Below the pieces are notes generated by a model, which was not told the origin of the DNA, ran no database searches, and saw nothing but the letters and a program-made list of their open reading frames with translations. A stretch of DNA of 64,000 nt from Gemmatirosa kalamazoonensis. Its GTDB lineage: Bacteria; Gemmatimonadota; Gemmatimonadetes; Gemmatimonadales; Gemmatimonadaceae. Shown one piece after another: positions 7,487 through 58,078 of this stretch. Where the stretch lies: assembly GCF_000522985.1 (NCBI RefSeq), contig NZ_CP007128.1, positions 2,030,220 to 2,094,219 on the forward strand, read 5' to 3'. Positions within the stretch are counted from its first letter, which is position 1; each line of letters starts with the position of its first letter. The translations under genes were made by a program, and so were the position numbers.

Positions 7487-7503
7487 GTTCTTTGCCAGCG
7501 AAC

Positions 7504-7602: not shown

Positions 7603-7603
7603 C

Positions 7604-8743: not shown

Positions 8744-8744
8744 G

Positions 8745-9866
8745 TCAACCCTCCAGCCGTACGCGGAACGATCGCGCGCTCGCGGCCAGCAGCACCACCG
8801 CCATCCCGAGCAGGACGAGCGTCTCGCGCCACAGGTACCCGAGCCCGACACCCTTCAGCATGATGCCGCGCGCCACCAGCACGAACCACTTCGCGGGCAC
8901 GATGTTCGTCACGATCTGCAGCGCGCGCGGCATGCTCTCGATCGGGAAGACGAAGCCGGAGAGCATCATCGTCGGCAGCATCGTCCCGACGAGCGCGATC
9001 ATCATCGCCACACGCTGCGACGAGGTGCGCGCCGAGACGAGGATCCCGAGCGCGAGCGACACGAGGATGAACAGCAGCCCCTCCGCGAGCAGCAGCGCGA
9101 CGGAGCCGCGCACCGGCACGTGGAAGACGAGCCGTGCCTCCAGCAGCACGAGCAGCACGCTCGCGAACCCGATCGCCAGATACGGCGCGACCTTGCCGAC
9201 GACGATCTGCCACGGCCGCAGCGGCGACACGAGCAGCGCCTCCATCGTGCCCGACTCCTTCTCGCGCGTCAGCGACAGCGCGGTCATGAGCGCCGACGTG
9301 ATCGTGAGCACCATCGCCATGAGCCCGGGCACGAACAGGTTCGCGCTCTCGCGCGTCGGGTTGAAGCGCATGCGCACCTCGGGCACGATACGCAGCGGCG
9401 CGGGCCCGGCTCCCGCGGACGGTCGCGTCGACATCGCGCCGCGCAGCACCGCGACGACGTAGCCGAGCCGCGCGCTGCCGCCGTTCGGCTCCGCGGCATC
9501 GGCGACGACGAGCACGCGCGCCGCCAGCCCGCGCGCCTGGCGCTCGGCCAGCCTCGGCTCGAACGACACGACCACCTGCGCCGCGCCGCGCTGGAACAGC
9601 GAGTCGATCCCGTCGTCGTCGAGCGCGCCGAACGTGCGCACCACGCGCAGCGACGGCGTTCCCTGCAGCTCGCTGCGCAGCGCCAGCGTCGCCACGTCCG
9701 GCGCCGGGTCGACGACGGCGAGCCGCACGTCGTTCACGTCGGTGCGGATCGAGTAGCCGAACAGGATCACCTGCACGACCGGCAGCAGCACGAGCACCGC
9801 GAGCGTGCGCCGGTCGCGCAGCACGTGGTACACCTCCTTGCGGAGCAGGCCGGTGAGCGCGGTCAT
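8745..9866 (-). CDS. ABC-2 type permease, exporter subunit
   Basis: Second ABC-2 permease of the exporter (YbhS-like, 373 aa). N-terminal membrane segment (LAVLVLLPVVQVILFGY), large periplasmic domain to about residue 175, then a block of five membrane segments including LFVPGLMAMVLTITSALMTA and the cytoplasmic LTREKESGTMEALLVSPL coupling helix typical of ABC2_membrane_3. ATG start at 9866. It is separated from its ATPase gene by the 180-bp GACAGGAT repeat region. It is a homologue of the next permease, so a heterodimeric channel is likely. Confidence 0.9.
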   Translation of the reverse strand: MTALTGLLRKEVYHVLRDRRTLAVLVLLPVVQVILFGYSIRTDVNDVRLAVVDPAPDVATLALRSELQGTPSLRVVRTFGALDDDGIDSLFQRGAAQVVVSFEPRLAERQARGLAARVLVVADAAEPNGGSARLGYVVAVLRGAMSTRPSAGAGPAPLRIVPEVRMRFNPTRESANLFVPGLMAMVLTITSALMTALSLTREKESGTMEALLVSPLRPWQIVVGKVAPYLAIGFASVLLVLLEARLVFHVPVRGSVALLLAEGLLFILVSLALGILVSARTSSQRVAMMIALVGTMLPTMMLSGFVFPIESMPRALQIVTNIVPAKWFVLVARGIMLKGVGLGYLWRETLVLLGMAVVLLAASARSFRVRLEG

Positions 9867-9867
9867 G

Positions 9868-10057
9868 CGCAGACAGGATCCAAGGACACGATGGGCAGGA
9901 CGCGGGTGCCGTCCTTTCGGACAGGATGAACAGGACGGACAGGATGACCTTCAGGCCCGACAACACCAGAAATGTTGCTGGTGTCGCTGCTTATCCTGTC
10001 CATGCTGCTCATCCTGTCAAAACGAACGGCCGCCGTCATCCAGTTCATCCTGTCGCC
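9868..10057. repeat. GGACAGGATGA inverted tandem repeats
   Basis: Imperfect copies of GGACAGGATGAACAGGA on one side and the complements TCATCCTGTC and TTATCCTGTCC on the other. The centre at about 9960-9990 can pair as ACACCAG...CTGGTGT. The rightmost copy runs into the end of the adjacent ATPase gene and supplies its stop codon. It fills the 178-bp gap inside the exporter operon. No gene is seen in it. Confidence 0.75.
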
Positions 10058-10785
10058 TCCGCGGGGCGCGCCAGCCGCACGAACAGCTCGTCCACCGACT
10101 CCACGCCGAACTCCCGCTTGAGGTCCGCCGGCGCGCCGCACGCCTCGATGCGCCCCGCGACCATGATCGAGATCCGATCGCAGTACTCCGCCTCGTCCAT
10201 GTAGTGCGTGGTGACGAACACCGTCGTCCCCGCGTGCGCCGCCTCGTAGATCATCTCCCAGAACTGCCGCCGCACGATCGGGTCGACGCCGCTCGTGGGC
10301 TCGTCGAGGAAGACGACGCGTGGCCGGTGCAGCAGCGCCACGGAGAACGCGAGCTTCTGCTTCCAGCCGAGCGGGATGTCGCGCACGCGGGCGCGCCGGT
10401 GTGCGGTGAGGCCGAGCCGCTCGAGCATCGCCGCGGCACGGTCGCGGATCTCGGCGTCGGTGAGGTCGTAGATGCCGCCGTAGAGCTGCACGTTCTCGCC
10501 GACGGTGAGGTCGTCGTACAGCGAGAAGCGCTGGCTCATGTAGCCGATGGCGCGCTTGATCGCCTCGCTCTCGGTGTACACGTCGAACCCGGCCACGCGC
10601 GCCTCGCCGCCGCTTGGCGCGAGCAGTCCGGTGAGCATGCGGATCGCGGTCGTCTTGCCGGCCCCGTTCGCACCGAGGAAGCCGAACACCTCGCCGGGCC
10701 ACACGTCGAACGTGATGTGATCCACCGCCGTGAACGCGCCGAACGTCCGCGTGAGACCGCGTGCCTCGATCGCCGGGGCCGTCAT
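10045..10785 (-). CDS. ABC exporter ATPase (second NBD)
   Basis: ATP-binding subunit of the ABC-2 exporter, 246 aa. Walker A GANGAGKTT at residues 38-46, Q-loop region in MSQRFSLYDDL, Walker B RVVFLDEPTSG, H-loop intact in TTHYMDEAEYCD. The signature is degenerate: LGWKQKL in place of LSGGMKQ. The ATG at 10785 has AGGAGG upstream and overlaps the preceding ATPase stop (ATGA). It equals the C-terminal half of fused YbhF-type proteins. Its partner has the opposite defect (see 10782-11717). Confidence 0.93.
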   Translation of the reverse strand: MTAPAIEARGLTRTFGAFTAVDHITFDVWPGEVFGFLGANGAGKTTAIRMLTGLLAPSGGEARVAGFDVYTESEAIKRAIGYMSQRFSLYDDLTVGENVQLYGGIYDLTDAEIRDRAAAMLERLGLTAHRRARVRDIPLGWKQKLAFSVALLHRPRVVFLDEPTSGVDPIVRRQFWEMIYEAAHAGTTVFVTTHYMDEAEYCDRISIMVAGRIEACGAPADLKREFGVESVDELFVRLARPAEATG

Positions 10786-11717
10786 GCCGCCGCCTCCTCG
10801 GTCATGCGCGCGATGAACGCGTCCTCGATCGTCGGCGCTGTCGCCTCGACGCGCGCGTCGGCGATGCCGCGCGCCCGCAGGAACTCGGCGAGCTCCCGCG
10901 CCAGCGGCTCCCGCGCCGCGTCGCGCCGCGCGTCGGCCACGTGCAGCGTCTCGCCGAACGGATACACCGCCTGCGCGTGCGGGTAGGCACGCGCCGCGGC
11001 GAGCGCGGCGAAGCGGTCGGCCGCGCGCACGGCGAGCAGCGGCCGGTCGTACGCCGCCGTCACGGCGGCGGGGGTGTCCACGGCGAGCAGCACGCCGCGC
11101 TGCACGAGCGCCACGCGGTCGCAGCGGTCCGCCTCGTCCATGTAGGGCGTCGACACGACGATCGTGAGCCCCGTCGCCTTCAGCGTGCCTAACAGATCCC
11201 ACAGCTCGCGCCGCGACACCGCGTCCACGCCCGTCGTCGGCTCGTCGAGGAAGAGGATGCGCGGACGGTGCACGAGCGCGCAGCAGAGCGCGAGCTTCTG
11301 CTTCATGCCGCCGGAGAGCGCGGCGGCGCGACGGTCGCGGAACGGGGCGAGCTGGTCGTAGATGGGGGCGATCCCCTCGCGCTCCGCTTCCATCGTCGTG
11401 CCGAACACCGACGCGAAGAAGCGCACGTTCTCGTCGACGCTGAGGTCGGGGTAGAGCGAGAAGCGCCCGGGCATGTATCCCACCTCGCGCCGCAGCGTCC
11501 ACAGCTCCCGCACGACGTCGCGGCCGAGCACGCGCGCCGCGCCGTCGTCGGGGACGAGCAGCGTCGCCAGGATGCGGAACAGCGTCGTCTTGCCGGCGCC
11601 GTCGGGACCGATGAAGCCGAACAGCTCCCCCTCGGCGACGGTGAAGCTCATCGCGTTCACCGCCACGGTGTCGCCGAAGCGCTTCGTCACCCGCTCGGCC
11701 TCGACGGCGGCGCTCAT
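10782..11717 (-). CDS. ABC exporter ATPase (first NBD)
   Basis: ATP-binding subunit of the exporter, 311 aa. Walker A GPDGAGKTT at residues 37-45, consensus signature LSGGMKQKL, Walker B RILFLDEPTTG. The H-loop position reads STPYMDEADRCD, so the switch histidine is Pro. A C-terminal extension of about 80 residues carries a regulatory-type fold. It overlaps HlyD upstream and the other ATPase downstream by ATGA. Together the two NBDs resemble YbhF split into two genes and should form a heterodimer with one fully competent ATP site. Confidence 0.93.
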   Translation of the reverse strand: MSAAVEAERVTKRFGDTVAVNAMSFTVAEGELFGFIGPDGAGKTTLFRILATLLVPDDGAARVLGRDVVRELWTLRREVGYMPGRFSLYPDLSVDENVRFFASVFGTTMEAEREGIAPIYDQLAPFRDRRAAALSGGMKQKLALCCALVHRPRILFLDEPTTGVDAVSRRELWDLLGTLKATGLTIVVSTPYMDEADRCDRVALVQRGVLLAVDTPAAVTAAYDRPLLAVRAADRFAALAAARAYPHAQAVYPFGETLHVADARRDAAREPLARELAEFLRARGIADARVEATAPTIEDAFIARMTEEAAA

Positions 11718-12694: not shown

Positions 12695-14064
12695 CAGGGG
12701 ATCTCCAACCCGAGTGTCGTGAGGAAGCGCGCCCGTGCCGCGGCCAGCGCGACGCGGTGCTCGTCGCGCGCGAGCCGGGCGGCGAGCAGCTCCGCCTCGC
12801 GGCTCGCGTACTCCGCGGCCGTCACCACCCCCTCGCCGAGCCGAGCGCGCGTCTCGCGCTCGACGCCCTCGCGCAGCGCGACGATGCCGTCGTCGAGCGC
12901 CATGGTGGCGGCGACCCGGTCGATCGTCGCGAGGTCGCCCTCCACGGCGCGGCGCAGCTGACGCGTGAGCGCGGCCTCGTTCGCGTCGACCACCTCGCGC
13001 TGGAGCGTGATCGCCTCGCGCTCGCGCGCCGCCGTGCCCCACGTCCATGGCGTCCACCGGAGCTGCACGCCGCCGAGCCAGTACGTGTCGAACGCGGTGG
13101 CGAGCGGATTGAGCCCCGGACGGCCGTAGCCGGCGCGCGCGAACGCCGAGATCTGCGGCCGCTCGCGCGCCGTCTGCAGCTCCGCCTGTCGCGCGAGCCG
13201 CTCGCGCGTCGCCTCGAGCTGCGCGTACTCGGGTCGCGCGCGCACCGAGTCGAGCGACGCACGCGCCCGCGCCGCCGCCGCGGCGAGGTCGGGGAGGGCG
13301 AGCGGCGCATTCGTGTCGGGCGCTGCGTCGGTGAGCTCGGCCAGCCGGGCGAGCGCGGCGCGCCGGTCGGCATCGGCCTGCAGGAGATCCTGCCGCCGCT
13401 GCAGCAGCGTGGCCGCGATCGACGCCGTGTCGCTCGGCAGCGCCGCGCCGCCGCGCACGCGGACGACTGCGTCGCGCAGCCGCGCCTCCAGCTCGACGAG
13501 CGTCGCGGCGAGCGTCGCATGGCGGGCGTCGAGGGCGGCCGCGGCGAAGAACGACTCCACCACCTCCTGCCGCAGCGCGAACAGCGACGCCCGCACGCCG
13601 GCCTGCGTCTCCGCGAGCTGCGCGCGCTCCGCGCCACGCCGCGCGGCGCGCGTGGGATCGAGGAGCGAGAGCTGGGCCTCCGCGTGCGCGTCATACGTGT
13701 CGTGCGGCGGCGACGGAACGCGGACGTTCGGCAGCGCGAGTGGCACGCGCGGCACGTCGGACTGGTACTGCGCCTGCCCGGCGGCGGCGAGCTGCGGCAG
13801 CCGCTCCGCGTCGAGGTTGCGCAGCCGCAGCGCCGACTGCTCCGCCGCGATGTCGATCTGCCGCCGCCGCGGGTCGGCGGCGAGGGCGGCCCGCATCACG
13901 ACCGGAAGGCGAAGCGTGTCCGCCGGCTGGGCGGCGAGGGGAGCGCCTAACGACAGGCAAAACAATGAAACCGCAGAGGACGCAGAGAACGCAGAGGAGA
14001 ACCAATCCCGTTGGTGTCCTCTGCGTCCTGTGCGTCCTCCGCGGTTCAGCGAAGGCCGTCTCAT
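12694..14064 (-). CDS. TolC-family outer-membrane efflux protein
   Basis: Outer-membrane channel of the exporter, 456 aa, with two OEP-type helical repeats (Ala/Leu/Arg-rich coiled coil throughout, Leu-Arg-Gln periodicity). Signal peptide about residues 1-46, ending APLAAQ. Its n-region (Arg-rich, residues 8-20) and h-region (residues 21-40) are read from the two arms of a CAGAGGACGC hairpin repeat. The ATG at 14064 overlaps the TetR stop (ATGA), which fixes the start. It ends sharing a base with the HlyD start. First structural gene of the operon after the regulator. Confidence 0.9.
   Translation of the reverse strand: MRRPSLNRGGRTGRRGHQRDWFSSAFSASSAVSLFCLSLGAPLAAQPADTLRLPVVMRAALAADPRRRQIDIAAEQSALRLRNLDAERLPQLAAAGQAQYQSDVPRVPLALPNVRVPSPPHDTYDAHAEAQLSLLDPTRAARRGAERAQLAETQAGVRASLFALRQEVVESFFAAAALDARHATLAATLVELEARLRDAVVRVRGGAALPSDTASIAATLLQRRQDLLQADADRRAALARLAELTDAAPDTNAPLALPDLAAAAARARASLDSVRARPEYAQLEATRERLARQAELQTARERPQISAFARAGYGRPGLNPLATAFDTYWLGGVQLRWTPWTWGTAAREREAITLQREVVDANEAALTRQLRRAVEGDLATIDRVAATMALDDGIVALREGVERETRARLGEGVVTAAEYASREAELLAARLARDEHRVALAAARARFLTTLGLEIP
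13969..14047. repeat. CAGAGGACGC hairpin repeat encoding the TolC signal peptide
   Basis: Arms of CCGCAGAGGACGCAGAG words and the complement CTCTGCGTCCTCTGCGG-like words around an ACCAA-TCCCG-TTGGT apex. It lies wholly inside the TolC gene at the signal-peptide codons. The sequence words match the middle layers of the nested palindromes at 39911-40187 and 47319-47595. Confidence 0.88.
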
Positions 14065-39910: not shown

Positions 39911-40187
39911 GGCGCACGCGGAGACGCGGAGAACGCGGAGAACACCTTTCGACCGCAGAGGGCCGCAGAGGGCCGCAGAGGACTCCCTCTTTGAATTGAA
40001 CCACAGAGGACACTGAGGACACGGAGGAAAACCCTTCAAGAAAGGTGGTTTCTCTGCGTCCTCTGTGTCCTCTGTGGTAAGAAAGCAGTTGAAGCAGTTG
40101 CCGTTCTCTGCGGCCCTCTGCGGCCCTCTGCGGTTCGTTCACACCGCCAAGGCAGTTCCCCGGCGTTCTCCGCGGCTCCGCGTGAGA
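39911..40187. repeat. Three-layer nested palindrome, copy 1
   Basis: Reading inward: layer A (ACGCGGAGAACGCGGAG), layer B (CCGCAGAGGGCCGCAGAGG), layer C (CCACAGAGGACACTGAGG), an AACCC-TTCAAGAAAG-GTGGTT apex, then C' (CCTCTGTGTCCTCTGTGG), B' (CTCTGCGGCCCTCTGCGG) and A' (TCTCCGCGGCTCCGCG). It fills the whole gap between convergent genes, from three bases after one stop to four before the other. Paralogous to 47319-47595. No coding potential. Confidence 0.92.
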
Positions 40188-47318: not shown

Positions 47319-47595
47319 TCTCACGCGGAGGTCGGCGAGGACTGCGGCTCGGCCGCTTCGAATTGAACCGCAGAGGACGCGGAGGGCCGCAGAGGACTGC
47401 CTCTTCCTGCCTTTCTTGATATTGAACCACAGAGGACACGGAGGACACAGAGGAAACCAACAATCGAAGTGGTTCTCCTCCGTGTCCTCCGTGTCCTCTG
47501 TGGTTCAAATCAAGAGGGCAGTCCTCTGCGGCCCTCTGCGTCCTCTGCGGTTCATTCACACAGCCAAGGCAGTTCTCCGCGTGCTCCGCGTGAGA
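47319..47595. repeat. Three-layer nested palindrome, copy 2
   Basis: Layer A TCTCACGCGGAG, layer B GAACCGCAGAGGACGCGGAG, layer C GAACCACAGAGGACACGGAG, apex with AACCA...TGGTT, then C', B' and A' (CTCCGCGTGAGA). The spacer between B' and A' (TTCACACAGCCAAGGCAGTT) is shared with copy 1. It ends three bases before the stop of the convergent ligase gene and begins six bases after the other stop. Confidence 0.93.
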
Positions 47596-47597
47596 CA

Positions 47598-49142
47598 CTA
47601 CCGCAACATCGCCCGCACCGCCGCGTAGTCGATCTTCGCGTTGTGCCGACGGTCGGTCGGCATGGTGTCGACGCTCGCGACGTCGTCGAGGTGGGCCCAG
47701 GAGAGGGCGCCCAACAGCGTCGGCACGTCGACGTCGGCGCCACGCTCGACGACGAGGACGCGGCGACCGTGGTGCGCGACGACGGCGACGCGGCGCGGGC
47801 CGAGCATCGCGCGGGCGGCCGCTTCGGCGGCGAACGGGTACAGCGTGCCGCGCGCGTCGACGATCGCGGCGGCCGCGCGGCCGAGGAGCCACAGGCGTCC
47901 GCGCTCGTCGAGATAGCCGGCGTCGCCGGTGCGATGCCACACGACGTCGTCGACGCGCACCTTCGTCTCGGCGTCGCCGATGCCGCGCAGGTAGCCGCGC
48001 ACGACGTGCGCGCCGGCGACGACGATCTCGCCCGGCTCGCCGGGCGCGCACCGCAGCGCCTCCAGCTCCGCGGCGCCTAACGGTCCGAGCGGCGCGTCCG
48101 GACGCGCGTGTATGATGCGCAGCGACACGCACGCGTCGGGCGTCCCGGCGAGCAGCCCGCGGCCGGCGCGCGTCGCCGCGTGATCGTCGGGCGACAGCTC
48201 GTCGTCGCGCACGTGGGCGATCGGCTCGGCCTCCGTGGAGCCGTACACGGCGACGATCCGCGCGTCGCGGGCGGCGCGCTTCACGCGCGCCACGAGGTCC
48301 GGAAACACCGGCCCACCGCCGGTGACGACCGACGCCAACCGAGCGAGCGCCCCGTCGGTGGACGCGTCGACGAGACGCTCGAGGAACGCGGGCGACGCGG
48401 TCACGCGGCCCACGTCGTGCTCGGCGAGCTGCGCGAGCACCGGTGCCGGGTCGATCGCGCCGGGACGTCGCAGGTCGGCGTCGGGGAGCACGGTCGTGGC
48501 GCCGGCCGCGAGGTTCACGAGCACCACGATCGGCAGGCTCACGAGCTCGCGCTCCCCCGCGCGCGCGGCGAGCGGCCGCAGCGCGTCGAGCTGCGCGCGC
48601 AGGATGCCGTGCGTGCGCACCGCGGCCTTCGGCGTGCCGGTGCTGCCGCTCGTGAACGTGAGCAGCGCGGGCGCGTCGGCGTCGCACGGATGCAGCGGCG
48701 CGTCGGCGCCGCCTAACGGGAGGCGTGCGGCGCTTGGCACCCACCCCCGCGTGACGAGCTTCACGGGAATGCGCCGTATCGCGCGGCTGACGAGCCGCAG
48801 CAGGTGCGCCTTGCGGCTCGCGACGAGCGCGGCGGGCGGCCACATCGCGCACGCCGCGTCGAGCACCCCGCGGCCGGCCGACGGCTCGACGAACATCGCC
48901 ACCGCGCCGACGCGGAAGACCGCAGCGAGCGCCGCGTACAGCTCCACGCTCGGCGGCGCGAAGAACAGCACCGCGTCGCCGGCGCGCACGCCGCGCGCGA
49001 CGAGCAGCGCCGCCGTCGCGCGCGCCGCGGCGTCGAGCGCGGCGAACGTCGTCGCGCGCGTGCGCCCGCCTACGCGTTCGACGAGCGCCGGCGCGTCGGG
49101 GCGCTCGGCCACCGGTCCGGCGAGCAGCTCGGCGACGTTCAC
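47598..49142 (-). CDS. AMP-forming acyl-CoA synthetase/ligase
   Basis: 514-aa ANL-superfamily enzyme activating a carboxylic (probably fatty) acid via acyl-AMP. Motifs: phosphate loop LTFTSGSTGTPKAAVRTHG, A5-type VYGSTEAEPI, A7 HRTGDAGYLDERGRLWLLGR, and the catalytic Lys in RRHNAKIDY near the C-terminus, similar to OleC-type ligases. GTG 49142 overlaps the acyltransferase stop (GTGA). Last gene of the lipid operon; it could supply the acyl donor for that pathway. Confidence 0.9.
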   Translation of the reverse strand: MNVAELLAGPVAERPDAPALVERVGGRTRATTFAALDAAARATAALLVARGVRAGDAVLFFAPPSVELYAALAAVFRVGAVAMFVEPSAGRGVLDAACAMWPPAALVASRKAHLLRLVSRAIRRIPVKLVTRGWVPSAARLPLGGADAPLHPCDADAPALLTFTSGSTGTPKAAVRTHGILRAQLDALRPLAARAGERELVSLPIVVLVNLAAGATTVLPDADLRRPGAIDPAPVLAQLAEHDVGRVTASPAFLERLVDASTDGALARLASVVTGGGPVFPDLVARVKRAARDARIVAVYGSTEAEPIAHVRDDELSPDDHAATRAGRGLLAGTPDACVSLRIIHARPDAPLGPLGAAELEALRCAPGEPGEIVVAGAHVVRGYLRGIGDAETKVRVDDVVWHRTGDAGYLDERGRLWLLGRAAAAIVDARGTLYPFAAEAAARAMLGPRRVAVVAHHGRRVLVVERGADVDVPTLLGALSWAHLDDVASVDTMPTDRRHNAKIDYAAVRAMLR

Positions 49143-50167
49143 CGCGGCACGCCAGCGCGCGCGCTCGCGAGCGCGCGCGCGAACAGCGTGTAGCGGCGCA
49201 TGGTGGCGCCGGTGCGCGCGCTCACCGACTGCGACGCGGCGTTCGTCTCGTGCATCAGCGCGTGGATGGCCCGTGTGAAGCCCAGCGCGGCGGCCGTGCG
49301 ATGCGTGCGGTGCACCATCCATCCACCGAGCCCGCCGTAGCGCTCGCGCTCCGGCAGCACGGCGACGGTCTTCACGATGACGGTGCGCGGCGGCTCGCCG
49401 CGCGCCACCTCGAGCGCGTCGGGGATGCTGAACGCGAAGCCGACCGCGCGTTCCTCGTGCTCGGCGAGGAGCGCCAGCTCGGGGCGCACCAGCCGGCGCA
49501 CCGCCTGGTACTGCGCGGCGAACTCGCGCTCGGCGATCGGCGTGTACAGCAGGTTCGCGCGGAAGCTCACCGCGGCGACGGAGTAGATCGCCCGCAGCTC
49601 GTCGTCGAACCGTGCGAGGTCGACCGGCCTGACGGTCACGCCCGACGCCGTCAGACGCTCGGCCGCCGCCTCGGCGCGCGGGTCGGGGCGCGTGAGGTCG
49701 GTGGCGAGCGCGGAGGTGTACTGCGCGAGCGGCGCGAACCCGGCCGCCTCGAACCACGCGGGCCACGCGTCGGGGTTCGTGGGCTCGAGGAAGAACGGCG
49801 GCTCGTCGCCGCGCTCGGTGACGAGGCGATAGCGCCGCCAGGTGTTGCCGTCCATCGGACCGACGGCGAGCGTGCAGCCGCGCGCCGCGAGCGCGTCGCA
49901 CGCGGCATCGAGCAGCAGCCGCGCGGCTTCCGCGTCCGCCGCGCCGAAGTGGCCGATGGCGCCGACGCGGTGCGCCTCGTACGGCGGCGCGTCGGTCCAC
50001 CAGAGCGAGCAGCGCGCGCGGAGCGCGGCACCCGCACGCACGACGAGGCTCGCATCGGGCGCCTGGCGCGCGATGTCGTCGACGTCAGGCGCGGGCCACT
50101 CCGGCGGCGCGGGCTCGGCGGCGAGCTCGCTCGGGTCCAACCGCATGATCGAGAACGGTCGCGTCAT
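49139..50167 (-). CDS. GNAT-like N-acyltransferase
   Basis: 342 aa. N-terminal 150 residues contain GAIGHFGAADAEAARLLLDAACDALAARGCTLAVGPMDGNTWRRYRLVTE (quoted in parts elsewhere as GNAT-like), the C-terminal half VGFAFSIPDAL, TVIVKTVAVLPERERYGGLGGWMVHRTH and HALMHETNAASQSVSART show the GNAT acyl-CoA-binding pattern. Proteins of this type sit in lipid and nonribosomal clusters. ATG 50167. A 61-bp gap separates it from the membrane kinase gene, the only gap of any size in the operon. Substrate unknown. Confidence 0.72.
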   Translation of the reverse strand: MTRPFSIMRLDPSELAAEPAPPEWPAPDVDDIARQAPDASLVVRAGAALRARCSLWWTDAPPYEAHRVGAIGHFGAADAEAARLLLDAACDALAARGCTLAVGPMDGNTWRRYRLVTERGDEPPFFLEPTNPDAWPAWFEAAGFAPLAQYTSALATDLTRPDPRAEAAAERLTASGVTVRPVDLARFDDELRAIYSVAAVSFRANLLYTPIAEREFAAQYQAVRRLVRPELALLAEHEERAVGFAFSIPDALEVARGEPPRTVIVKTVAVLPERERYGGLGGWMVHRTHRTAAALGFTRAIHALMHETNAASQSVSARTGATMRRYTLFARALASARAGVPR

Positions 50168-50228
50168 CGGTGCGCCCGTGCGTCGTTCCCCATTGAAACG
50201 CGAAGGACGTGGCGTCGTGCACCGTGCG

Positions 50229-51572
50229 TCATCGCCCCAGCTCCGTCATGACCAGGCCGAACGCCGACGCACCGAGTCCGAGCAGCGCCTGGCGGGCCCA
50301 CGGATACTCGTGGTTCTTGCGCCCCTGCAGGTCGGGCACCGCGAGCGTGAACGCGATCGCGCCCGCGACGAGCGCCGCGTAGCCGGCGACCGCGTCGAAC
50401 AGCACCGAGTGCGCGGGCCCGGTCACGACGACGTACGGCGTGAGCACGACGGCCCACGCGACCGTGGCGGTGGCGAGCACGACGCGCCACCGCGACGCGC
50501 TGCGGCGGAAGTCGCGCCACCAGGTGACGCCGATGAAGCAGAGGTTCGCGGCGAAGACGAGCGTGTACGGGAAGTAGAAGTCGGGGCGCCGCAGCACGAC
50601 GGCGAGCAGCAGCCAGAGCATGCCGCACGACGTCACCGAGAACAGCGCGATGATGTCGTGTGGCCGCTCGCGGATCTGATGGTGGCGCGGCCACGCGATG
50701 GTGTACGCGACGAGCAGCACCGACGGCGGCACGAGCCAGCGCCATCCGCCGACCGACCACGCGACGTATCCCACGAGCACGCCGGCGAGCATCGCCGAAT
50801 CGGTGAGCGTGCGGCGGCGGCGGAGCCCGAGCACGAGCACGAGCAGCGCGACCGTCACGGCGAACCGACGCGCGAGCGCCGCCGCGTCGAGCGCGATCGA
50901 TGCGCGCAGCAGCAGGAAGCCGCCGAACGGGATGAACAGGTTGTCGAGCCCGCGCCACGCGACCGCCTCGAGCAGCATCACGAGCACGCCGAACGTGAGG
51001 CCGATGAACACCGACTCCGCGCGGCCGACGGTCGTGAAGAGCAACAGCGGGAGATGCGTGGCGAGGAACGCGACGAGGAAGAACGCGATCGATCCCTCGG
51101 CGCTCTTGCCGCCGTCGGCACCCTCGAAGCGGTGCTGGCCGTAGCGCACGCCGACGAGCGCCGCCACCGCGTCGGCGAACGCGAGGGTGAGGATCGGCAC
51201 CGTGTACAGGATCCGGTCGCCGCGCGCGAGCACGAACAGCCCCGTCGCCGCGACGGGGAAGTACAGGTCGCCGAGCGACGCGCGGTCGACGCCGTGCACC
51301 ACGCCACCGACCTGCGTGCGGAGCGCGGGCACGTAGCGCAGCGCGAGCAGCGTGCACACGGCGACCGCGCCGAGCAGCAGCACCGGCCACACGTCGCTGA
51401 ACAGCCAGGGGAAGGAGAGCGTCGCGAGCCCGAGGCCGACGTGCGCCGTCTTGCGCATGACCTCCGGGTGCGGCGCCCAGCGCGCGCGCACGGCGCGCAG
51501 CACCACGAGCATCGCGACGAGCGCGACGACGAGGATGCCGACGCCGATCCACGGCGCGGGCGCCGCGATCAC
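50229..51572 (-). CDS. Phytol/dolichol-kinase-like (CTP-transferase family) membrane protein
   Basis: 447-aa polytopic membrane protein. VMRKTAHVGLGLATLSFPWLF and VPILTLAFADAVAALVGVRYGQHRF followed by GGKSAEGSIAFFLVAF are the hallmarks of the CTP-dependent isoprenoid/diacylglycerol kinase branch of the CTP_transf_1 family (phytol kinase VTE5, SEC59, DGK1). It carries about a dozen helices, twice the usual number, so a second membrane domain is fused. GTG 51572 overlaps the DUF3419 stop. Likely phosphorylates a lipid alcohol. Confidence 0.82.
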   Translation of the reverse strand: MIAAPAPWIGVGILVVALVAMLVVLRAVRARWAPHPEVMRKTAHVGLGLATLSFPWLFSDVWPVLLLGAVAVCTLLALRYVPALRTQVGGVVHGVDRASLGDLYFPVAATGLFVLARGDRILYTVPILTLAFADAVAALVGVRYGQHRFEGADGGKSAEGSIAFFLVAFLATHLPLLLFTTVGRAESVFIGLTFGVLVMLLEAVAWRGLDNLFIPFGGFLLLRASIALDAAALARRFAVTVALLVLVLGLRRRRTLTDSAMLAGVLVGYVAWSVGGWRWLVPPSVLLVAYTIAWPRHHQIRERPHDIIALFSVTSCGMLWLLLAVVLRRPDFYFPYTLVFAANLCFIGVTWWRDFRRSASRWRVVLATATVAWAVVLTPYVVVTGPAHSVLFDAVAGYAALVAGAIAFTLAVPDLQGRKNHEYPWARQALLGLGASAFGLVMTELGR

Positions 51573-52684
51573 GCGACGACCTCCTCGAGCACGAAGTCGC
51601 CGTAGAAGAACGTCTTGTCGGCGTCGTGCAGCCGGCGCGCGTCGGGGAGCGCTCGGAGCCGGCGCGGCAGGTACTCGGCGCCGTGGCGCGGCACGAGCAG
51701 GTTCCAGTACGCGAGGCGCGCCCCGGGGGTCGCCGCGTCGCACAGCCGCTCGAGGAGCGCGGTGGCGTTCGGCACCGACACGTACTCGAAGATGTTGCTC
51801 AGGTTCGCGCGGTCGAAGCCGTCGATGACGCCGCGGTCGGCGAGCGTCTCGAGCGGCTCGCAGTGCCACTCCAACCGGTCGAGATGGTCGCGAATGGCGT
51901 CGAAATGCTCCGCGCGCAGCGCGTGCGGAAGCGCCGCGCGGTGCTCGCCGGTGAGGATCCACGCGACGTACGGGTTCTCCGACGGGTCGAGGTCGACGAG
52001 CGCGTGGCGCACGCGGTCTCGCAGGTGCTCGGCGGGGCTGCGCTCGGCGTAGCGGAAGAAGCTCGGGTCGCGGCCGAGTCGCCCGAGCACCGTCTCGGAG
52101 AAGAACATCCGGAAGAGCAGCCGCCAGCGCCACGTGTCCCAGCGGTCGTCGTGGAACGCGCGGCGCGCGGCAGGGTCGCGGGGAGCGAGCGCCGCCTCCA
52201 CCGTCGCGCGGCGATGCACGAGCGGGAGCACGCGCTCGCGGAAGATGCGGAAGTAGTTCTCGAACTTCCCCGCGGCGCCGATGCCGCGCGCCACGGCGTC
52301 GGCGCGCGAATCCCAGAAGCGGCGGGCGTCGGGTGACAGCGCCGCGCGACAGCGGGCGTACAGCGTGCCGCGCCCGACGCTCGGCCGCGACCCGACGAGC
52401 TCCAGCAGCTCGGCGTGCGACAGCGTGCGATAGGCGGCGACGCGCAGCTCGAGCGCGGCCAGCTGGGCCGGGTTGAGGTCCACCGCCACGACGCGCGCGG
52501 GGCGCTGGGCGAGCAGCGAGAGCGTGTTGTCGCCGGCCGACGCGATCGACAGCACCGTGTCGCCCGGCCTAACGGCGAGCCCCTCGACCAGGATGTCGGC
52601 GTCCTCCCACACCTGCGCGTAGCGGAGGATGGACGTGAAGTCGGCGTGCGCCGCGGCCTCGCTGCGGAGGGCGTCGGTGGTCAC
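51569..52684 (-). CDS. DUF3419 family, BtaA-like aminocarboxypropyltransferase
   Basis: 371-aa SAM-dependent enzyme. RYAQVWEDADILVEGL (residues about 21-36), SAM fold VLSIASAGDNTLSLLAQRPARVVAVDLNP (in two parts), long helical insert, and INLSNIFEYVS-like DRANLSNIFEYVS typical of BtaA. BtaA transfers the 3-amino-3-carboxypropyl group of SAM to diacylglycerol in betaine lipid synthesis. BtaB (N-methyltransferase) is not seen in the window. GTG overlaps at both ends. Suggests an amino-acid-like lipid headgroup. Confidence 0.85.
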   Translation of the reverse strand: MTTDALRSEAAAHADFTSILRYAQVWEDADILVEGLAVRPGDTVLSIASAGDNTLSLLAQRPARVVAVDLNPAQLAALELRVAAYRTLSHAELLELVGSRPSVGRGTLYARCRAALSPDARRFWDSRADAVARGIGAAGKFENYFRIFRERVLPLVHRRATVEAALAPRDPAARRAFHDDRWDTWRWRLLFRMFFSETVLGRLGRDPSFFRYAERSPAEHLRDRVRHALVDLDPSENPYVAWILTGEHRAALPHALRAEHFDAIRDHLDRLEWHCEPLETLADRGVIDGFDRANLSNIFEYVSVPNATALLERLCDAATPGARLAYWNLLVPRHGAEYLPRRLRALPDARRLHDADKTFFYGDFVLEEVVA

Positions 52685-55173
52685 AGGCGGCGCACCTCGC
52701 CCGTACGGCCGTCGAGCTCCACCTCGTCGCCGGTGCGCAGCCACGTCGTGAGCCCGTCGATCGCGATGACGGCGGGGAGGCCCAGCTCGCGCGCCACGAT
52801 CGCGGAGTGCGAGAGCAGGCTGCCGCGCTCGACGAGCAGCGCGCTCGCGGCGGGGAAGAGCATCACCCATCCCGGGTCGGTGCGCTCGGCGACGAGGATC
52901 TCGCCGGGCTCCATGACCGCCTCGCGCGGGTCGCGCACGACGCGCACGCGGCCGCGCACGACGCCCGGGTGGCAGCCGGTGCCGCGCCGTTCGTCGCCGC
53001 CTAACGATGCCGGCGGCGTGGGATCGGCGCGCCGCGCGAGGAAGTCGTGGCCGACGTGCACCGGACCGCGCGTGTCGAAGCGGCCGGCCGGTGCGGGCAT
53101 GGCGCGCCAGCGCGCGAACTCCGCAGCGCGGGCGGCGACGATCGGGCGCAGGTCGGCGCTCGCCGTCGTCGCGCCGGGCCAGCCGAGCGCCTCGTCCACG
53201 GTGAGCCAGAAGACGTCGCGCGGCTCGTCGAGCACGCCGAGCGCGGCGTAGCGCTTTCCCAGCTCGACGAAGATGCGCCTGACGCGGCCGAACACGCGCG
53301 TGCGCTCGAAGCGCAGGTTCTCGCGGTCACGCACGCGGCGGCGCGCGCGACGCAGCACCCAGCGAAAGATCGCCCGCCTGACCGGATGGCCGCGCAGCGC
53401 GTCGTCGGCGCGGGCCTCGGCGGCCGCGCGCACGTCGACACGCGGCGCGCGGTCGGAGGGGTGCGCGCCGCGCGCGCGGGCGAGGCGGCCGACGGAGCGC
53501 ACGAGCAGCAGCGGGTCGTCGCCGAGCGTCTCGGTCTCCAGCTTCAGCTCCTCGAGGCAACGGTCGCCGAACGTCGCGAGGTAGTCGTCGAGCTCCGCGG
53601 CGAGCACGGGATGCGCGGCGACGGCGGCACGCGCGGCGTCGGGGGCCGCGTCGCAGAGCGCGGCGACGACCGCGGGGTCGCTCGCGGCGATGGCGGCCAT
53701 GCGCTCGATGCGACGCGCCGGCTCGGCGCTGACGATCGCTCCCTCGCCGGCGACGAGATCGTTCTGCAGGGTCTCGTCGGCGTCGCCGCACCAGCGCGCG
53801 GCCAGCCTGCGCAGCACGCCGTAGAAGATCATCGCGAAGAAGTCGTTCACGAGCGGCGTGTCCCACCGCGCGAGCAGCCGGCGCTCCAGGTCGCGATAGT
53901 GCGCCACCAGCTCGTCGGGCCGCATGGCCGCGAGGTCGACGCCGCCGAGCGCATCGTCGAGACGCGACCGGAACGACGCGACGTCGCGGTCGAGCCGAGC
54001 ATGCGCGCGCACGAGCCCCCACACGGTGCCTAACAGCGCGACGGCGTCGGCGAGGCGCTCGCGCGTCGTGGCGGCGGGCACGCGGTCCGCCACCTCGGCC
54101 GGCAGCCCCTCCTTCACGCCCATCATCTGCTCCATGAACGGGCGGTTGAGCCGGTAGCCGGGGAGGAGCGCGAGGATGCGGTACCAGCTCACGAGGTTGT
54201 AGTAGACGCGTCCGCGCACGAGCCCGAGCATCGCGCGCAGCGCATCCGCCTCGGCGTCGATGCGCCGCTCGGGGACGCCGACGATGCGGCAGAACTGGCG
54301 ATAGACGGCCTCGTACACGTAGCGCGCGAACGAGTACGTGAGCGGCGTGGTGACGCCGCCGTAGCTCTCGGCGATGTTGCTGTCGTCCCACACGGCGAGC
54401 GCGCCGTCGGGGTCGGGGAGCGCGGCGAGCGACGTGACGGGGCGCGACTGGAGCAGCCACAGCGTGCCGCTCTCGATCGCCCACTCGACGTCCTGCGGTC
54501 GGCCGAAGTGGCGCTCGGCCGCGCGCGCGAGGTCGGCGACGCGCCGCACGGTGTCGTCGTCGAGCGCGGGCCGGTCGCCGACGATCGCGCGGTGGACGAC
54601 GGCGCCGGCGCGGTCGACGTGCCAGAGATCCGCGTCGGCCTCGCCGCTCACGAGCCGGTCGCCGAGCCCGCGCACCGCGCTCACGACGCAGACCGCGCGC
54701 CGACCGGACACCGGGTCGGCGCTGAACGCGACGCCGGCGGCGTCGGCGTTCACCATGCGCTGCACGAGCGCGGCCGGGAGCGTGCCGTGCGCGAGGCCGT
54801 GCTGCGCGCGGTAGGCGGTGACGCGCTCGGCGCGCGCGGCACGCCACACGTCGCGCACGCGCTCGGGCACGTCGACCGGCGACACGTTCAGGTAGGACTC
54901 GAACTGACCCGCGAAGGAGTGCGCGGCGCCGTCCTCCTCGACGGCGGAGGAGCGGACGGCCAACAACTGGCTGCCCGGCGCGAGCGCGCGCACCGCGGCG
55001 CACAGCTCGTCGCGGAGCGCCTCGGGGAGTGGGGCGTCGGGGTCGGTGCCGTCGGGGGCGCGGAGCGCGAACCAGGGTGGCACGGGGAGCCCCGCCGCGG
55101 CGAGCGCGGCGAGCGACGCGGCCTTGCCTCCGATCTCGGCCGCCGAGCCCGCCCGCGCGATCGCGCCCGTCAT
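52681..55173 (-). CDS. ATP-dependent dikinase of rifampin-phosphotransferase architecture
   Basis: 830 aa. N-terminal ATP-grasp (PPDK_N) about 1-245: GGKAASLAALAAAGLPVPPWF, AVRSSAVEEDGAAHSFAGQFESYLNV, ADPVSGR, DVEWAIESGTLWLLQSRPV. A long helical middle domain spans about 250-755. The C-terminal phosphohistidine swivel domain has His789 in GSLLSHSAIVARELGLPAV. The protein ends there: the PEP-binding TIM barrel of PEP synthase is absent. This is the layout of rifampin phosphotransferase and other dikinases that phosphorylate an alcohol. ATG 55173 overlaps UbiA (ATGA). Possibly phosphorylates the lipid alcohol of the operon. Confidence 0.85.
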   Translation of the reverse strand: MTGAIARAGSAAEIGGKAASLAALAAAGLPVPPWFALRAPDGTDPDAPLPEALRDELCAAVRALAPGSQLLAVRSSAVEEDGAAHSFAGQFESYLNVSPVDVPERVRDVWRAARAERVTAYRAQHGLAHGTLPAALVQRMVNADAAGVAFSADPVSGRRAVCVVSAVRGLGDRLVSGEADADLWHVDRAGAVVHRAIVGDRPALDDDTVRRVADLARAAERHFGRPQDVEWAIESGTLWLLQSRPVTSLAALPDPDGALAVWDDSNIAESYGGVTTPLTYSFARYVYEAVYRQFCRIVGVPERRIDAEADALRAMLGLVRGRVYYNLVSWYRILALLPGYRLNRPFMEQMMGVKEGLPAEVADRVPAATTRERLADAVALLGTVWGLVRAHARLDRDVASFRSRLDDALGGVDLAAMRPDELVAHYRDLERRLLARWDTPLVNDFFAMIFYGVLRRLAARWCGDADETLQNDLVAGEGAIVSAEPARRIERMAAIAASDPAVVAALCDAAPDAARAAVAAHPVLAAELDDYLATFGDRCLEELKLETETLGDDPLLLVRSVGRLARARGAHPSDRAPRVDVRAAAEARADDALRGHPVRRAIFRWVLRRARRRVRDRENLRFERTRVFGRVRRIFVELGKRYAALGVLDEPRDVFWLTVDEALGWPGATTASADLRPIVAARAAEFARWRAMPAPAGRFDTRGPVHVGHDFLARRADPTPPASLGGDERRGTGCHPGVVRGRVRVVRDPREAVMEPGEILVAERTDPGWVMLFPAASALLVERGSLLSHSAIVARELGLPAVIAIDGLTTWLRTGDEVELDGRTGEVRRL

Positions 55174-56144
55174 CGCCGCGCGACGAACGGGACGACGCCG
55201 ACGCCGAGGTAGAGCGCGATCGTCCAGACCCCGGCGAGCGTCTCCAGCCGGCGTCCCGCGCCCGGCGAAGGGACCGACACGAGGCGCGCACCCAGCACGA
55301 CCGCGACGACGGCGAGGGTGCCTAACAGCCCCGCGACGAGCCACGCCGCGCCGACGTGCGCCGCGGCGACGGTGGCGAACGTGGCCGTCGCCGCGAGCAC
55401 GCCGAGCCATGCAGCGACGGCGCGTCGCACGCCCCAGACGGCGGTGTACGTACGCACGCCGCGCTCCTCGTCGTGCGGCGCGCGGAGCTTGCGGCCGATC
55501 TCGACGACCATGCCGTTGCCGAAGCTCGCGGCGAGAAACCACGCGATGCCGGCGCCGACGTCGCGTCCCGCGCCGGCGGCGAGCCAGTCGCACGACGTCG
55601 CGTACAGGTCGATGAGCGGGATGACGAGCATGTGCGTCCACAGCACCGTCACCGGCCGGTCGGCGAGCCACGCGTGGAGCCAGAACTCCTTCGTCATGAG
55701 CGCGACGAACGCCCACGCCAGCGCGAGCGGCAGCAGGAGGCGCGGCGAGAGCCAGAGCGCCAGCCCGAGCTGCACGAGCGCGGCGAGCAGCCCGAGCCCG
55801 CGCAGCTCGCGCAGCGTGACGAGGCGGCGCGGCACGGGGCGGTACGGCCGGTGGCGCGCGTCGTCGCGGAAGTCCTTCAGCTCGTCCGAGACGCGGAGCT
55901 GGAAGAAGAACAGGAAGCAGCTCGCGAACGCCACGACGAAAGACGCGGTGGCGGCCGACGGCGGAGTGCCGTGCGCGCGCGCGCGGAGCAGCGCGGAGTA
56001 GCACACCGCCCCAGCGGAGAACGCGAGGATGAGCGCTCCGTGGGCGAGCACCGGGAACCGCTCGCGCTGGTAGACGACCCAGCGGGCGAGTCCCTGCGGC
56101 GCACGCCCCTCGGTGGGGTCGGCGGTGGGGGTCTGGGCGGCCAT
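55170..56144 (-). CDS. UbiA-superfamily prenyltransferase
   Basis: 324-aa membrane protein with about eight to nine helices. The Asp-rich Mg-prenyl-diphosphate motif is RVSDELKDFRDDARHRP (about 84-100; the usual NDxxDxxxD is changed). A second motif, weaker, lies in EIGRKLRAPHDEERGVRTY with conserved WG after it. Prenyl transfer to a polar acceptor is the family reaction. ATG 56144 follows GGAGAG; a GTG four codons upstream is less likely. It is the first gene of the six-gene lipid operon. Confidence 0.83.
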   Translation of the reverse strand: MAAQTPTADPTEGRAPQGLARWVVYQRERFPVLAHGALILAFSAGAVCYSALLRARAHGTPPSAATASFVVAFASCFLFFFQLRVSDELKDFRDDARHRPYRPVPRRLVTLRELRGLGLLAALVQLGLALWLSPRLLLPLALAWAFVALMTKEFWLHAWLADRPVTVLWTHMLVIPLIDLYATSCDWLAAGAGRDVGAGIAWFLAASFGNGMVVEIGRKLRAPHDEERGVRTYTAVWGVRRAVAAWLGVLAATATFATVAAAHVGAAWLVAGLLGTLAVVAVVLGARLVSVPSPGAGRRLETLAGVWTIALYLGVGVVPFVARR

Positions 56145-56219: not shown

Positions 56220-56591
56220 CTAACGCGTCGGCTGCGTCGGCGCCGGCACGACGTTCACGGTGCCGACCATGCCCGCGTGCAGCGTGCACACGTAGGCGAA
56301 CGTGCCGGGCGACGCGAACGTGCGCGACGCGGTGTTGCTCGTCGTCGTCGGGACGTTCTGCGGGGCGCCGGCGGTCTGGACGAACGTCACGTTGTGCGGG
56401 CGGGTGCCGAACGTCCAGGTGACCGTGCCGCCCTGCAGCACGTTGAGGATCTGCGGCGTGAACGAGTTCGCGGTGGAGGAGGCGGTGACGGCGCCGGTGC
56501 TCGGCGCGCCCGGCTCCAGGGGCTCGGGCTTCTCGCTGAAGCACGCCGTGGCGACGAGCGCGACTGCTGTGAGGAGAGGGATTCGGCGCAT
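56220..56591 (-). CDS. Plastocyanin/cupredoxin-like lipoprotein
   Basis: 124-aa small copper protein. Lipobox ALVATAC (Cys17), then a short Pro/Ser linker and a plastocyanin-like domain: ANSFTPQILNVLQGGTVTW, GTRPHNVTF (first His), FASPGTFAYVCTLHAGM (Cys, His, Met ligands spaced C-x2-H-x2-M). ATG 56591 with GAGGCGAG upstream; a longer start 12 codons upstream is possible. The TAG stop lies inside a GTTAGGC word. Probable periplasmic electron carrier, divergent from the barrel-cupredoxin gene. Confidence 0.88.
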   Translation of the reverse strand: MRRIPLLTAVALVATACFSEKPEPLEPGAPSTGAVTASSTANSFTPQILNVLQGGTVTWTFGTRPHNVTFVQTAGAPQNVPTTTSNTASRTFASPGTFAYVCTLHAGMVGTVNVVPAPTQPTR

Positions 56592-56680
56592 GCGGGCTCG
56601 CCTCGAAGGGATTCGCTGGATGGGCATGGACGCGGGTGACGGCTCGGAATCACGGGTACTGACGGCGCGACGCGCAGCGC

Positions 56681-56725: not shown

Positions 56726-58078
56726 ATGACCGCGACCCCGCGCCACCATCTCACCTCCGCACTCATGCCGCGCTTCACCGCCCCGCGTCGGATCTCGGCG
56801 CTGCTCCTCGCCCTTCCGCTCGCCGCCGGCGCGCAGGACCCGCAAGGCTCCGTGCTGCGACGGACGCCGAACATGGTCACGAACTGGGTGAACGACCCGT
56901 GGACGATCCAGTTCAACTTCATCCACCGGTTCACGGAGAGCGGACCGCCGCAGCATCAGATCTCGAACACGCCGACGTTCTTCGTCGCGGCGGGGATGCC
57001 GGCGCGCACGTCGCTGGGCTTCGCGTACTCGACGAGCTCCGAGGTGGTCGCCCTGCGGCCTAACGAGTGGGAGTTCTTCTTGCGCAACATGCCGTTCCGG
57101 CCCGGCAACAAGGTGGCGGACGTCACGCTGCACCTCGGCCACAACGTGGGCGCGGCGAGCACGGACGGGGAGCTGGGGATCGCGCGCAGCTTCGGCGCGC
57201 TGCGGCTGCTCGGCGCGGCGCGCGGGTTCAGCAACGCGTTCGGCGAGGGCGACGCGCGGCTCGGCTACGGCGGGGGCGTGAACCTGAAGCTGATGAAGTG
57301 GCTCGCCGCGGCGGGCGACGTGAACTCCATGCACCAGCGCCGCACCGGCGAGCGGATCGGGTGGAGCGGGGGGCTGATGTTCGGCATCCCGACGACGCCG
57401 CACTCGCTGTCGATCTACGCGACGAACACGGTGACGGCCACGCTGGAAGGGCTCTCGCTCGGCACGCGGCACACGCGGTGGGGCTTCGAGTACACGGTGC
57501 CGATCACGCTCGCGCGCTACATCCCGGCGCTGCGCCCGAAGTCGGCGCCGGTGGTGGCCGCCGCGAGCGACTCGACCCCGCCGGCGGCCGCGGTGGCCGC
57601 GACGCCCGAGCCGGCGCCGGTGCCCGTCACGCCGACGCCGACGCCGACCGAGCCCGCCGCGCCGACGCCGACCGCGCCGATCCCGGTGACGAAGGACGCG
57701 CCGGCGACGCCGACCCCGACGCCGATGCCGACGGCGACGGCGACCCCCGCACCCGCGGCGGCGGCCCCGACGCCGACCGCGCCGCGCACGACGCCGAGGC
57801 CGACGAGCGCGGCCGCGCCGGCGCGGCGGGATACGGTGCGCGCGACGATGCGGCAGCTGGAGTTCGCGCCGACGCGGATCGAGGTGGCAGCCGGGACGAC
57901 GGTGATCTGGACGAACAACGCGCCGCTGCAGCACTCCATCGTGGCGGACAACGGCAGCTTCGACTCGGGGCTGATCGACCCGGGCAAGCGGTACGCGCGC
58001 ACGTTCACGAAGCCGGGGACGTACACGTTCCACTGCACGCCGCACCCGTTCATGAAGGGCGTCGTCGTCGTGAGGTAG
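56726..58078 (+). CDS. Outer-membrane barrel-like protein fused to a cupredoxin
   Basis: 450 aa. Signal peptide ending LAAGAQ. Residues about 40-265 form a beta-barrel-like domain of the DUF5777 type (WTIQFNFIHRFTES, TSLGFAYSTSSEVVAL, ADVTLHLGHNVGAAS, RWGFEYTVPITLARYI). A Thr/Pro/Ala-rich linker spans about 272-369. A complete plastocyanin-like domain follows from 370: QLEFAPTRIEVAAGTTVIW, LQHSIVADNG, FTKPGTYTFHCTPHPFMKG with H, C, H, M ligands. ATG 56726; a second ATG at 56765 gives a shorter signal peptide. The fusion suggests a surface-anchored electron-transfer or copper-binding module. Confidence 0.78.
   Translation: MTATPRHHLTSALMPRFTAPRRISALLLALPLAAGAQDPQGSVLRRTPNMVTNWVNDPWTIQFNFIHRFTESGPPQHQISNTPTFFVAAGMPARTSLGFAYSTSSEVVALRPNEWEFFLRNMPFRPGNKVADVTLHLGHNVGAASTDGELGIARSFGALRLLGAARGFSNAFGEGDARLGYGGGVNLKLMKWLAAAGDVNSMHQRRTGERIGWSGGLMFGIPTTPHSLSIYATNTVTATLEGLSLGTRHTRWGFEYTVPITLARYIPALRPKSAPVVAAASDSTPPAAAVAATPEPAPVPVTPTPTPTEPAAPTPTAPIPVTKDAPATPTPTPMPTATATPAPAAAAPTPTAPRTTPRPTSAAAPARRDTVRATMRQLEFAPTRIEVAAGTTVIWTNNAPLQHSIVADNGSFDSGLIDPGKRYARTFTKPGTYTFHCTPHPFMKGVVVVR

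Follow-up and report, generated by a model that had tools for sequence, protein, structure and literature searches.

A six-gene operon of Gemmatirosa kalamazoonensis belongs to a widespread gene cassette that may direct the synthesis of a membrane lipid with an amino-acid head group

The window analysed here is a stretch of 64,000 nucleotides of Gemmatirosa kalamazoonensis (contig NZ_CP007128.1, positions 2,030,220 to 2,094,219), and the system in question is a group of six adjoining genes on its minus strand. Read from position 56144 to 47598, these encode a UbiA-like transferase, a dikinase, a BtaA-like protein, a membrane kinase-like protein and, after a gap of 61 nt, a tandem GNAT acyltransferase and an acyl-CoA ligase (Table 1). 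It is clear that the genes lie where a preliminary description of this DNA had placed them: the strand, the 4-nt ATGA/GTGA overlaps at four of the five junctions and the single gap were all confirmed. The six genes are all open reading frames, with a G+C content at third codon positions (GC3) of 0.94-0.96 in each, and they reside on a 5,311,527-base contig within a 7.48-Mb genome. Pfam supports the assignments to UbiA, PPDK_N with PEP-utilizers, DUF3419, GNAT (barely at the cut-off) and AMP-binding.

Table 1. Features of the gene cluster in order of transcription; positions are those of the window.
Feature	Position	Strand	Details
UbiA-like gene (UbiA-superfamily membrane transferase)	55170-56144	-	ATG start, 324 aa
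Dikinase-type gene (ATP-grasp and swivelling phospho-His domain)	52681-55173	-	ATG start, 830 aa, ATGA overlap
BtaA-like gene (DUF3419)	51569-52684	-	GTG start, 371 aa, GTGA overlap
Membrane kinase-like gene	50229-51572	-	GTG start, 447 aa, GTGA overlap
Intergenic gap between kinase and GNAT genes, 61 nt	50168-50228	-	Sole junction without overlap; read from the sequence
Tandem GNAT gene	49139-50167	-	342 aa
AMP-forming acyl-CoA ligase gene	47598-49142	-	GTG start, 514 aa, GTGA overlap

The conservation of this arrangement was explored by scanning the BtaA-like protein against 84,980 species genomes, which yielded 80 loci, 68 of them close (at least 120 bits). Gene content was counted for the 38 close loci with at least 7 kb of sequence upstream and at least 4 kb downstream and, given that all loci were found via BtaA, the counts describe BtaA-containing clusters only. 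The dikinase gene accompanies the BtaA-like gene at 36 of these loci, and the GNAT, UbiA, kinase and ligase genes at 35, 34, 33 and 32, respectively, an association that is far beyond chance. The commonest form of the cluster has seven genes, fcrA-ubiA-dikinase-btaA-kinase-gnat-acl, and this exact order, with the gene of an FcrA-type reductase in front, is found at 19 of the 38 loci, the median spacing being -4 nt at the fcrA/ubiA, dikinase/btaA and btaA/kinase junctions. The preliminary description would have been refuted by a lack of conservation of the gene order; a check of other genomes gave the opposite result, the order being kept across phyla. Its unit of six genes needs amending: the six genes are real, but the commonest unit has seven and the window lacks the usual first one.

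At least ten phyla carry the cluster, and the host groups comprise Verrucomicrobiota, Pseudomonadota, Cyanobacteriota, Bacillota, Planctomycetota, Gemmatimonadota, Elusimicrobiota, Thermodesulfobacteriota, Fibrobacterota, Rhodothermota and Chloroflexota. In the Bacillota the order is rotated to btaA-kinase-gnat-acl-ubiA-dikinase. Across the six genes, distances between pairs of proteins are correlated (r of 0.90-0.98), at a level reached in none of 500 permutations, and r falls to 0.61-0.86 once the Clostridia and related loci are removed. The distribution is patchy: the BtaA-like gene was found in 32 of 395 genomes of the Gemmatimonadota, the phylum of the window, and the count among relatives is 4 of 99. 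The tree of the BtaA-like gene intermixes phyla. A separate search found a copy on a complete 136.7-kb plasmid of Roseinatronobacter sp. S2 (NZ_CP121116.1; loci L137/L139). This plasmid holds all seven genes; fcrA spans the start of the circular record and is for that reason omitted from the plasmid gene table. Given the patchy gene, the phylum-mixing tree and the plasmid copy, the simplest reading is that the cluster has been transferred horizontally between bacteria.

A gene for an MMPL-family transporter lies inside or adjoining the cluster at five loci, as would suit the export of a lipid. The conserved order, the co-varying distances and these MMPL genes bear out the earlier proposal of one operon for an undescribed lipid with a predicted amino-acid-like head group, and we hold it very probable that the genes serve a single conserved lipid-type pathway. 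The patchy distribution, the plasmid copy and the unusual enzyme combination are also typical of specialised metabolism, and the dikinase is related to PigC and RedH, ligases that take part in prodigiosin synthesis. These features would suit a secreted natural product of small size, such as an acylated metallophore or signal, in which the aminocarboxypropyl group would act as it does in nicotianamine- or opine-like metallophores. We regard such a product as improbable, given that a lipid is indicated by the two integral-membrane enzymes, by the fatty acyl-CoA reductase and, at some loci, by an MMPL exporter, and that the clustered neighbours show no recurring family of receptors, peptide synthetases or regulators.

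The gene missing from the window belongs by family assignment (PF00368) to the 3-hydroxy-3-methylglutaryl-CoA (HMG-CoA) reductases. It is found in the cluster at 27 loci, as a rule directly 5' of ubiA (median spacing -4 nt), and it stands directly before ubiA in the closest relatives of the window (L149 in genome G050 and L144 in genome G017). Because these nearest relatives have the gene in place, the window lineage has probably lost fcrA from its cluster. The cluster copies retain the catalytic Glu, Lys, Asp and His and carry three substitutions, of Ser684 to Glu (28 of 28), of Lys735, by our presumed numbering of the HMG-binding lysine, to a small residue (28 of 28) and of Leu862 to Phe or Trp (27 of 27). 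Grossi et al. (2025; PMC11948995) give the same three substitutions for FcrA, which they describe as a reductase of long-chain fatty acyl-CoA that does not use HMG-CoA; they print the HMG-binding lysine as Lys795, taken here to be Lys735. The signature points to the seventh gene encoding a predicted fatty acyl-CoA reductase, despite its annotation as an HMG-CoA reductase. It also makes a fatty alcohol the more likely lipid chain and lends no support to the emphasis on prenylation that the preliminary description implied.

The single HMG-CoA reductase homologue in the genome of the window lies at 5.000 Mb of contig C2, is fused to the N-terminal domain PF25653 and also carries the three FcrA substitutions. 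Given that the enzyme GcpE of the methylerythritol phosphate (MEP) pathway is present and that no HMG-CoA synthase was found in this genome, the homologue stands outside a complete mevalonate pathway. It belongs to a set at about 6382-11520 of locus L086 (C2:4992000-5010000), on the minus strand, in which a frame with a WS/DGAT motif (HHCVADG; HHxxxDG type) is followed by FcrA and by an overlapping long-chain acyl-CoA synthetase (fadD). This group matches the wax-ester set described in the same sections of PMC11948995. The PF00368 assignment and the UbiA neighbour could alternatively be read as an isoprenoid/mevalonate operon with a genuine HMG-CoA reductase as seventh gene. This candidate was rejected on the FcrA substitutions, present in every copy, and on the presence of MEP without HMG-CoA synthase in the genome of the window; the score against the NCBIfam HMG-CoA reductase model (344 bits) also remains below the cut-off of 441.8, and we consider this the least likely of all the explanations weighed.

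The membrane kinase-like protein has no Pfam match above cut-off, and a fold search with its AlphaFold model (predicted local distance difference test, pLDDT, of 92) gave no convincing match. Its N-terminal half aligns with stand-alone cyanobacterial kinase-like proteins of about 240 aa (hhalign probability 99.9, E 4e-34), which we infer to be phytol kinases. In the kinase family (40 sequences) R40-K41-x-x-H44 is invariant, and an RK..H charged clamp is described for the Plasmodium prenol kinase PfPolK (PMC10849223). The protein is thereby predicted to be a membrane alcohol kinase whose N-half is homologous to phytol and farnesol kinases. All invariant columns fall within residues 37-215 and the C-half is variable; because this half carries no invariant residue, the safe reading is that the kinase would perform a single phosphorylation. 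An initial reading by eye as a VTE5+VTE6 fusion, with a second kinase activity, is not claimed here, for the same reason and because the profile comparison aligns DUF92 with the N-half; weak DUF92 matches on the C-half were seen in 3 of 40 members, at an E of 0.024 that falls below the cut-off.

The dikinase matches PF01326 and PF00391 and has no match to the TIM barrel that binds phosphoenolpyruvate (PEP), and the catalytic His789 of its swivel domain is invariant across the family. The best match of its profile in the PDB is 5fbs (E 6e-124), deposited as a PEP synthase, which we take, with PMC4844700, to be the Listeria rifampin phosphotransferase (RPH). The dikinase scores below cut-off against all NCBIfam models of PEP synthase and, judged by its sequence, it is an RPH-type phosphotransferase and not a PEP synthase; the latter was ruled out by the missing barrel and by these scores.

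The UbiA-like protein scores 40.5 bits against PF01040 (cut-off 34.2), and its first Asp-rich motif, of the NDxxDxxxD type, is present as the variant DExKDxxxD, in which D87, E88, K90, D91 and D95 are invariant. The best solved relatives of the family profile are digeranylgeranylglyceryl phosphate (DGGGP) synthase (6m31, E 1.4e-6) and then chlorophyll synthase. A phosphoribosyltransferase of the DPPR type was also considered; a profile search extended to E 10 gave no match to that family, an absence that is no proof against it. The enzyme is predicted to join a lipid chain to an acceptor hydroxyl.

Given that DGGGP synthase and chlorophyll synthase both have prenyl donors, and that the kinase is related to phytol and farnesol kinases and keeps the RK..H clamp, the leading rival explanation is an isoprenoid chain. 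In that case the kinase would convert a salvaged prenol, such as phytol or geranylgeraniol, into its phosphate, the diphosphate would be formed by the dikinase or by a VTE6-like enzyme of the host, and the UbiA-like enzyme would prenylate an acceptor of the glycerol type; the product would be a prenyl ether lipid whose head group is aminocarboxypropyl. FcrA would then have a branched or prenoic acyl-CoA as its substrate, or else belong to another branch. Cyanobacteria with a kinase-less cluster have stand-alone phytol-kinase-like and DUF92/VTE6-like genes and no FcrA, as this explanation would have it, but a cyanobacterium with the complete cluster has the same stand-alone kinases, so that these genes do not help to decide between the explanations. 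The cluster usually begins with a gene of the FcrA type, described in PMC11948995 as acting on long-chain fatty acyl-CoA, and neither prenyl synthases nor prenyl reductases are a recurring family around the cluster. An isoprenoid chain is for these reasons judged rather unlikely.

The BtaA-like protein, the only DUF3419 protein in the genome of the window, scores 257.7 bits against PF11899 (cut-off 28.2) and is predicted from its family to be a 3-amino-3-carboxypropyl transferase dependent on S-adenosylmethionine (SAM). It shares the SAM motif AVDLNPAQ with canonical BtaA, to whose relatives it is about 27-29% identical, and the cluster-linked proteins form a clade separate from canonical BtaA (support 99/96). 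The shared domain and motif would allow an operon for the betaine lipid diacylglyceryltrimethylhomoserine (DGTS) with a diverged BtaA, which we consider very improbable. A methyltransferase lies next door in the canonical relatives (L075-L077 and Sinorhizobium meliloti), whereas a BtaB-type N-methyltransferase is absent from the window and from the cluster loci, and the separate clade is a further point against a DGTS operon. Canonical DGTS synthesis, moreover, has ordinary diacylglycerol as its substrate and does without the other five enzymes.

The GNAT sequence family is conserved, and its AlphaFold model (pLDDT 95) aligns in VIA-align with the tandem GNAT MAB_4324 (Z 22.1, root-mean-square deviation 4.0, 287 residues aligned) and with mycothiol synthase 2c27 (Z 19.8, deviation 3.7, 269 aligned). 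The model indicates a tandem GNAT with two domains per chain. Mycothiol synthase MshD acetylates an amino-acid alpha-amine, and an aminocarboxypropyl group would offer an amine of the same kind; the cluster GNAT is predicted to acylate an amine. The acylation foreseen in the preliminary description would more likely be an N-acylation, by a tandem GNAT resembling mycothiol synthase. Searches of the PDB with the sequence profiles of the kinase, BtaA-like and GNAT proteins gave no match. The ligase matches PF00501 and is conserved across the loci; its nearest NCBIfam model is PRK09274 (334 of 478 bits, below cut-off), and a beta-lactone synthetase of the OleC type was discarded on a score of 175 bits versus 850 for the NCBIfam OleC model.

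Taken together, the chances appear evenly balanced that the six genes form an operon devoted to making a membrane lipid whose head group is an amino acid of the homoserine type. The operon would belong to a mobile cassette, usually of seven genes, and the lipid would be made by the following stepwise route, the exact order of which is put forward only tentatively. The ligase, true to its family, would activate a fatty acid to acyl-CoA, and the FcrA-type reductase, recognised in the relatives by its residue signature, would reduce it to a fatty alcohol; for the window this step could be supplied by the FcrA encoded at 5.0 Mb. The membrane kinase, by its homology and clamp motif, may phosphorylate the alcohol from cytidine triphosphate (CTP), and the dikinase, whose mechanism class is established, may add a further phosphate to the lipid phosphate or to the acceptor. 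The UbiA-like enzyme would couple the activated chain to an acceptor hydroxyl, in the manner of the ether-forming DGGGP synthase, and the BtaA-like enzyme, as its family suggests, would move 3-amino-3-carboxypropyl from SAM to a remaining hydroxyl. The tandem GNAT, as its fold suggests, would acylate the new alpha-amine with acyl-CoA, and in some lineages the MMPL transporter would export the product. Because of the FcrA signature in the usual seventh gene, a lipid based on a fatty alcohol is weighed somewhat above one based on a prenol.

Several points weigh against this route. The canonical second DxxxD motif was not found in the UbiA-like protein and is replaced by E215..R218K219......E226. 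To our knowledge, the donors of characterised UbiA enzymes are allylic prenyl diphosphates; a saturated alkyl diphosphate is not of this kind, and for this reason a fatty-alkyl donor would be unusual. This is the main difficulty: either the chain is a prenol, or the UbiA clade with the altered motif works differently. FcrA is absent from the Clostridial and from some cyanobacterial cluster genomes, so that the FcrA alcohol is not universal; it was not found elsewhere in five Clostridial and three cyanobacterial cluster genomes, nor in the genomes of L030, L033, L059 and L062. In the Clostridial and cyanobacterial clusters without FcrA the alcohol would therefore come from another source. The kinase is missing from some cyanobacterial clusters, and gnat from the variant at L145 (G367:C226:1-15000), which reads fcrA-btaA-kinase-acl-ubiA-dikinase with low similarity of acl and ubiA. 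The correlated distances do not by themselves prove a shared function of the six genes, and what is observed are the enzyme classes and their conservation, from which the product and every substrate are inferred.

Variation around the cluster was also seen. L013, L027, L066 and L032 have additional genes upstream of ubiA: in three cyanobacterial loci of this set, which lack fcrA, a radical-SAM/SPASM protein and one or two small uncharacterised membrane proteins come before the cluster, and a Verrucomicrobial locus shares the radical-SAM gene and the larger membrane gene. The Clostridial clusters L041, L049, L050, L053 and L055 have an extra AMP-forming ligase 3' of the dikinase, and in L041 the two read as one 1421-aa frame, a possible natural fusion.

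At the 3' end of the cluster in the window, a short way past the ligase stop, two nested near-perfect inverted repeats occupy 47364-47554, with arms of 38 nt (97%) and 40 nt (90%). Their core recurs in part at 13972-14025 and 39954-40132, and they are possibly a repeated palindromic element or a terminator. Beside the start of the cluster lies a divergent gene pair, 56220-56627 (minus strand) and 56726-58078 (plus strand), whose proteins resemble cupredoxins by eye; the gene nearer to the cluster, 56220-56627, has no match in any fetched locus.

No paper describing the operon was found, including in searches on DUF3419, on the enzyme combination and on the context of FcrA; these covered the open-access literature only, and a preprint or subscription paper could exist. 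Within that literature, the earlier statement that no described pathway has this combination holds, and the enzyme families are known while the pathway appears to be new. An acyl-CoA ligase/GNAT/ATP-grasp operon and an operon with UbiA appear in the lipocone paper (PMC12419801), both different from this cluster. At less than even confidence, we propose a new class of membrane lipid with an ether-linked (alkyl or prenyl) backbone and an N-acylated 3-amino-3-carboxypropyl head group, made with a UbiA-type ether synthase and two unlike kinases and spread horizontally between phyla. If true, this lipid class can now be searched for in lipidomic surveys of named hosts, such as Desulfobulbus rhabdoformis DSM 8777, Oscillatoria sp. 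PCC 10802, Microseira wollei NIES-4236 and Roseinatronobacter sp. S2. The cluster also suggests that FcrA has a role beyond wax esters and that the BtaA family has a second function, and it places enzymes of the phytol-kinase-like and RPH-like kinds in the context of lipids. Annotation as HMG-CoA reductase can evidently mislead, and the public record of the plasmid labels the cassette only by loose domain names (UbiA family, PEP/pyruvate-binding, DUF3419, hypothetical, hypothetical and AMP-binding).

Each enzyme of the cluster that has a known counterpart resembles it in part. The BtaA-like protein has in common with BtaA of the DGTS pathway (btaA-btaB of Sinorhizobium meliloti) the DUF3419 domain, the AVDLNPAQ-type motif and a predicted aminocarboxypropyl transfer to a lipid hydroxyl, whereas the cluster BtaA forms its own clade, comes without BtaB and is linked to other lipid genes. 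The GNAT has the tandem fold of MshD and MAB_4324 (Z about 20-22) but is 12-15% identical to them, and mycothiol-like chemistry is without evidence. With RPH and PigC/RedH the dikinase shares the ATP-grasp, substrate and swivelling phospho-His domains; it differs in being a sequence family of its own, in a context that is not antibiotic resistance, and presumably acts on a lipid intermediate. The kinase is homologous in its N-half to the phytol, farnesol and prenol kinases VTE5, FOLK and PfPolK and keeps their RK..H clamp, but has an extra, poorly conserved second membrane half.

DGGGP synthase of archaeal ether lipids is the best solved relative of the UbiA-like protein, although the match is weak (E 1.4e-6) and the second Asp motif of the UbiA-like protein differs. 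As regards the FcrA/wax-ester pathway, the sections of PMC11948995 used here tie FcrA to wax esters and suggest ether lipids via AGPS or PlsC-like genes. The seventh gene has the FcrA residue signature and the genome of the window has an FcrA-fadD-wax synthase group, whereas here fcrA adjoins a UbiA-dikinase-BtaA-kinase-GNAT cluster that those sections do not mention. The ebo operon (PMC5133447) is likewise a conserved, horizontally spread operon of six genes with a UbiA-family enzyme and a product described as unknown; the UbiA-family gene is held by both systems, and the other five genes of ebo are, by their published annotation, of different families.

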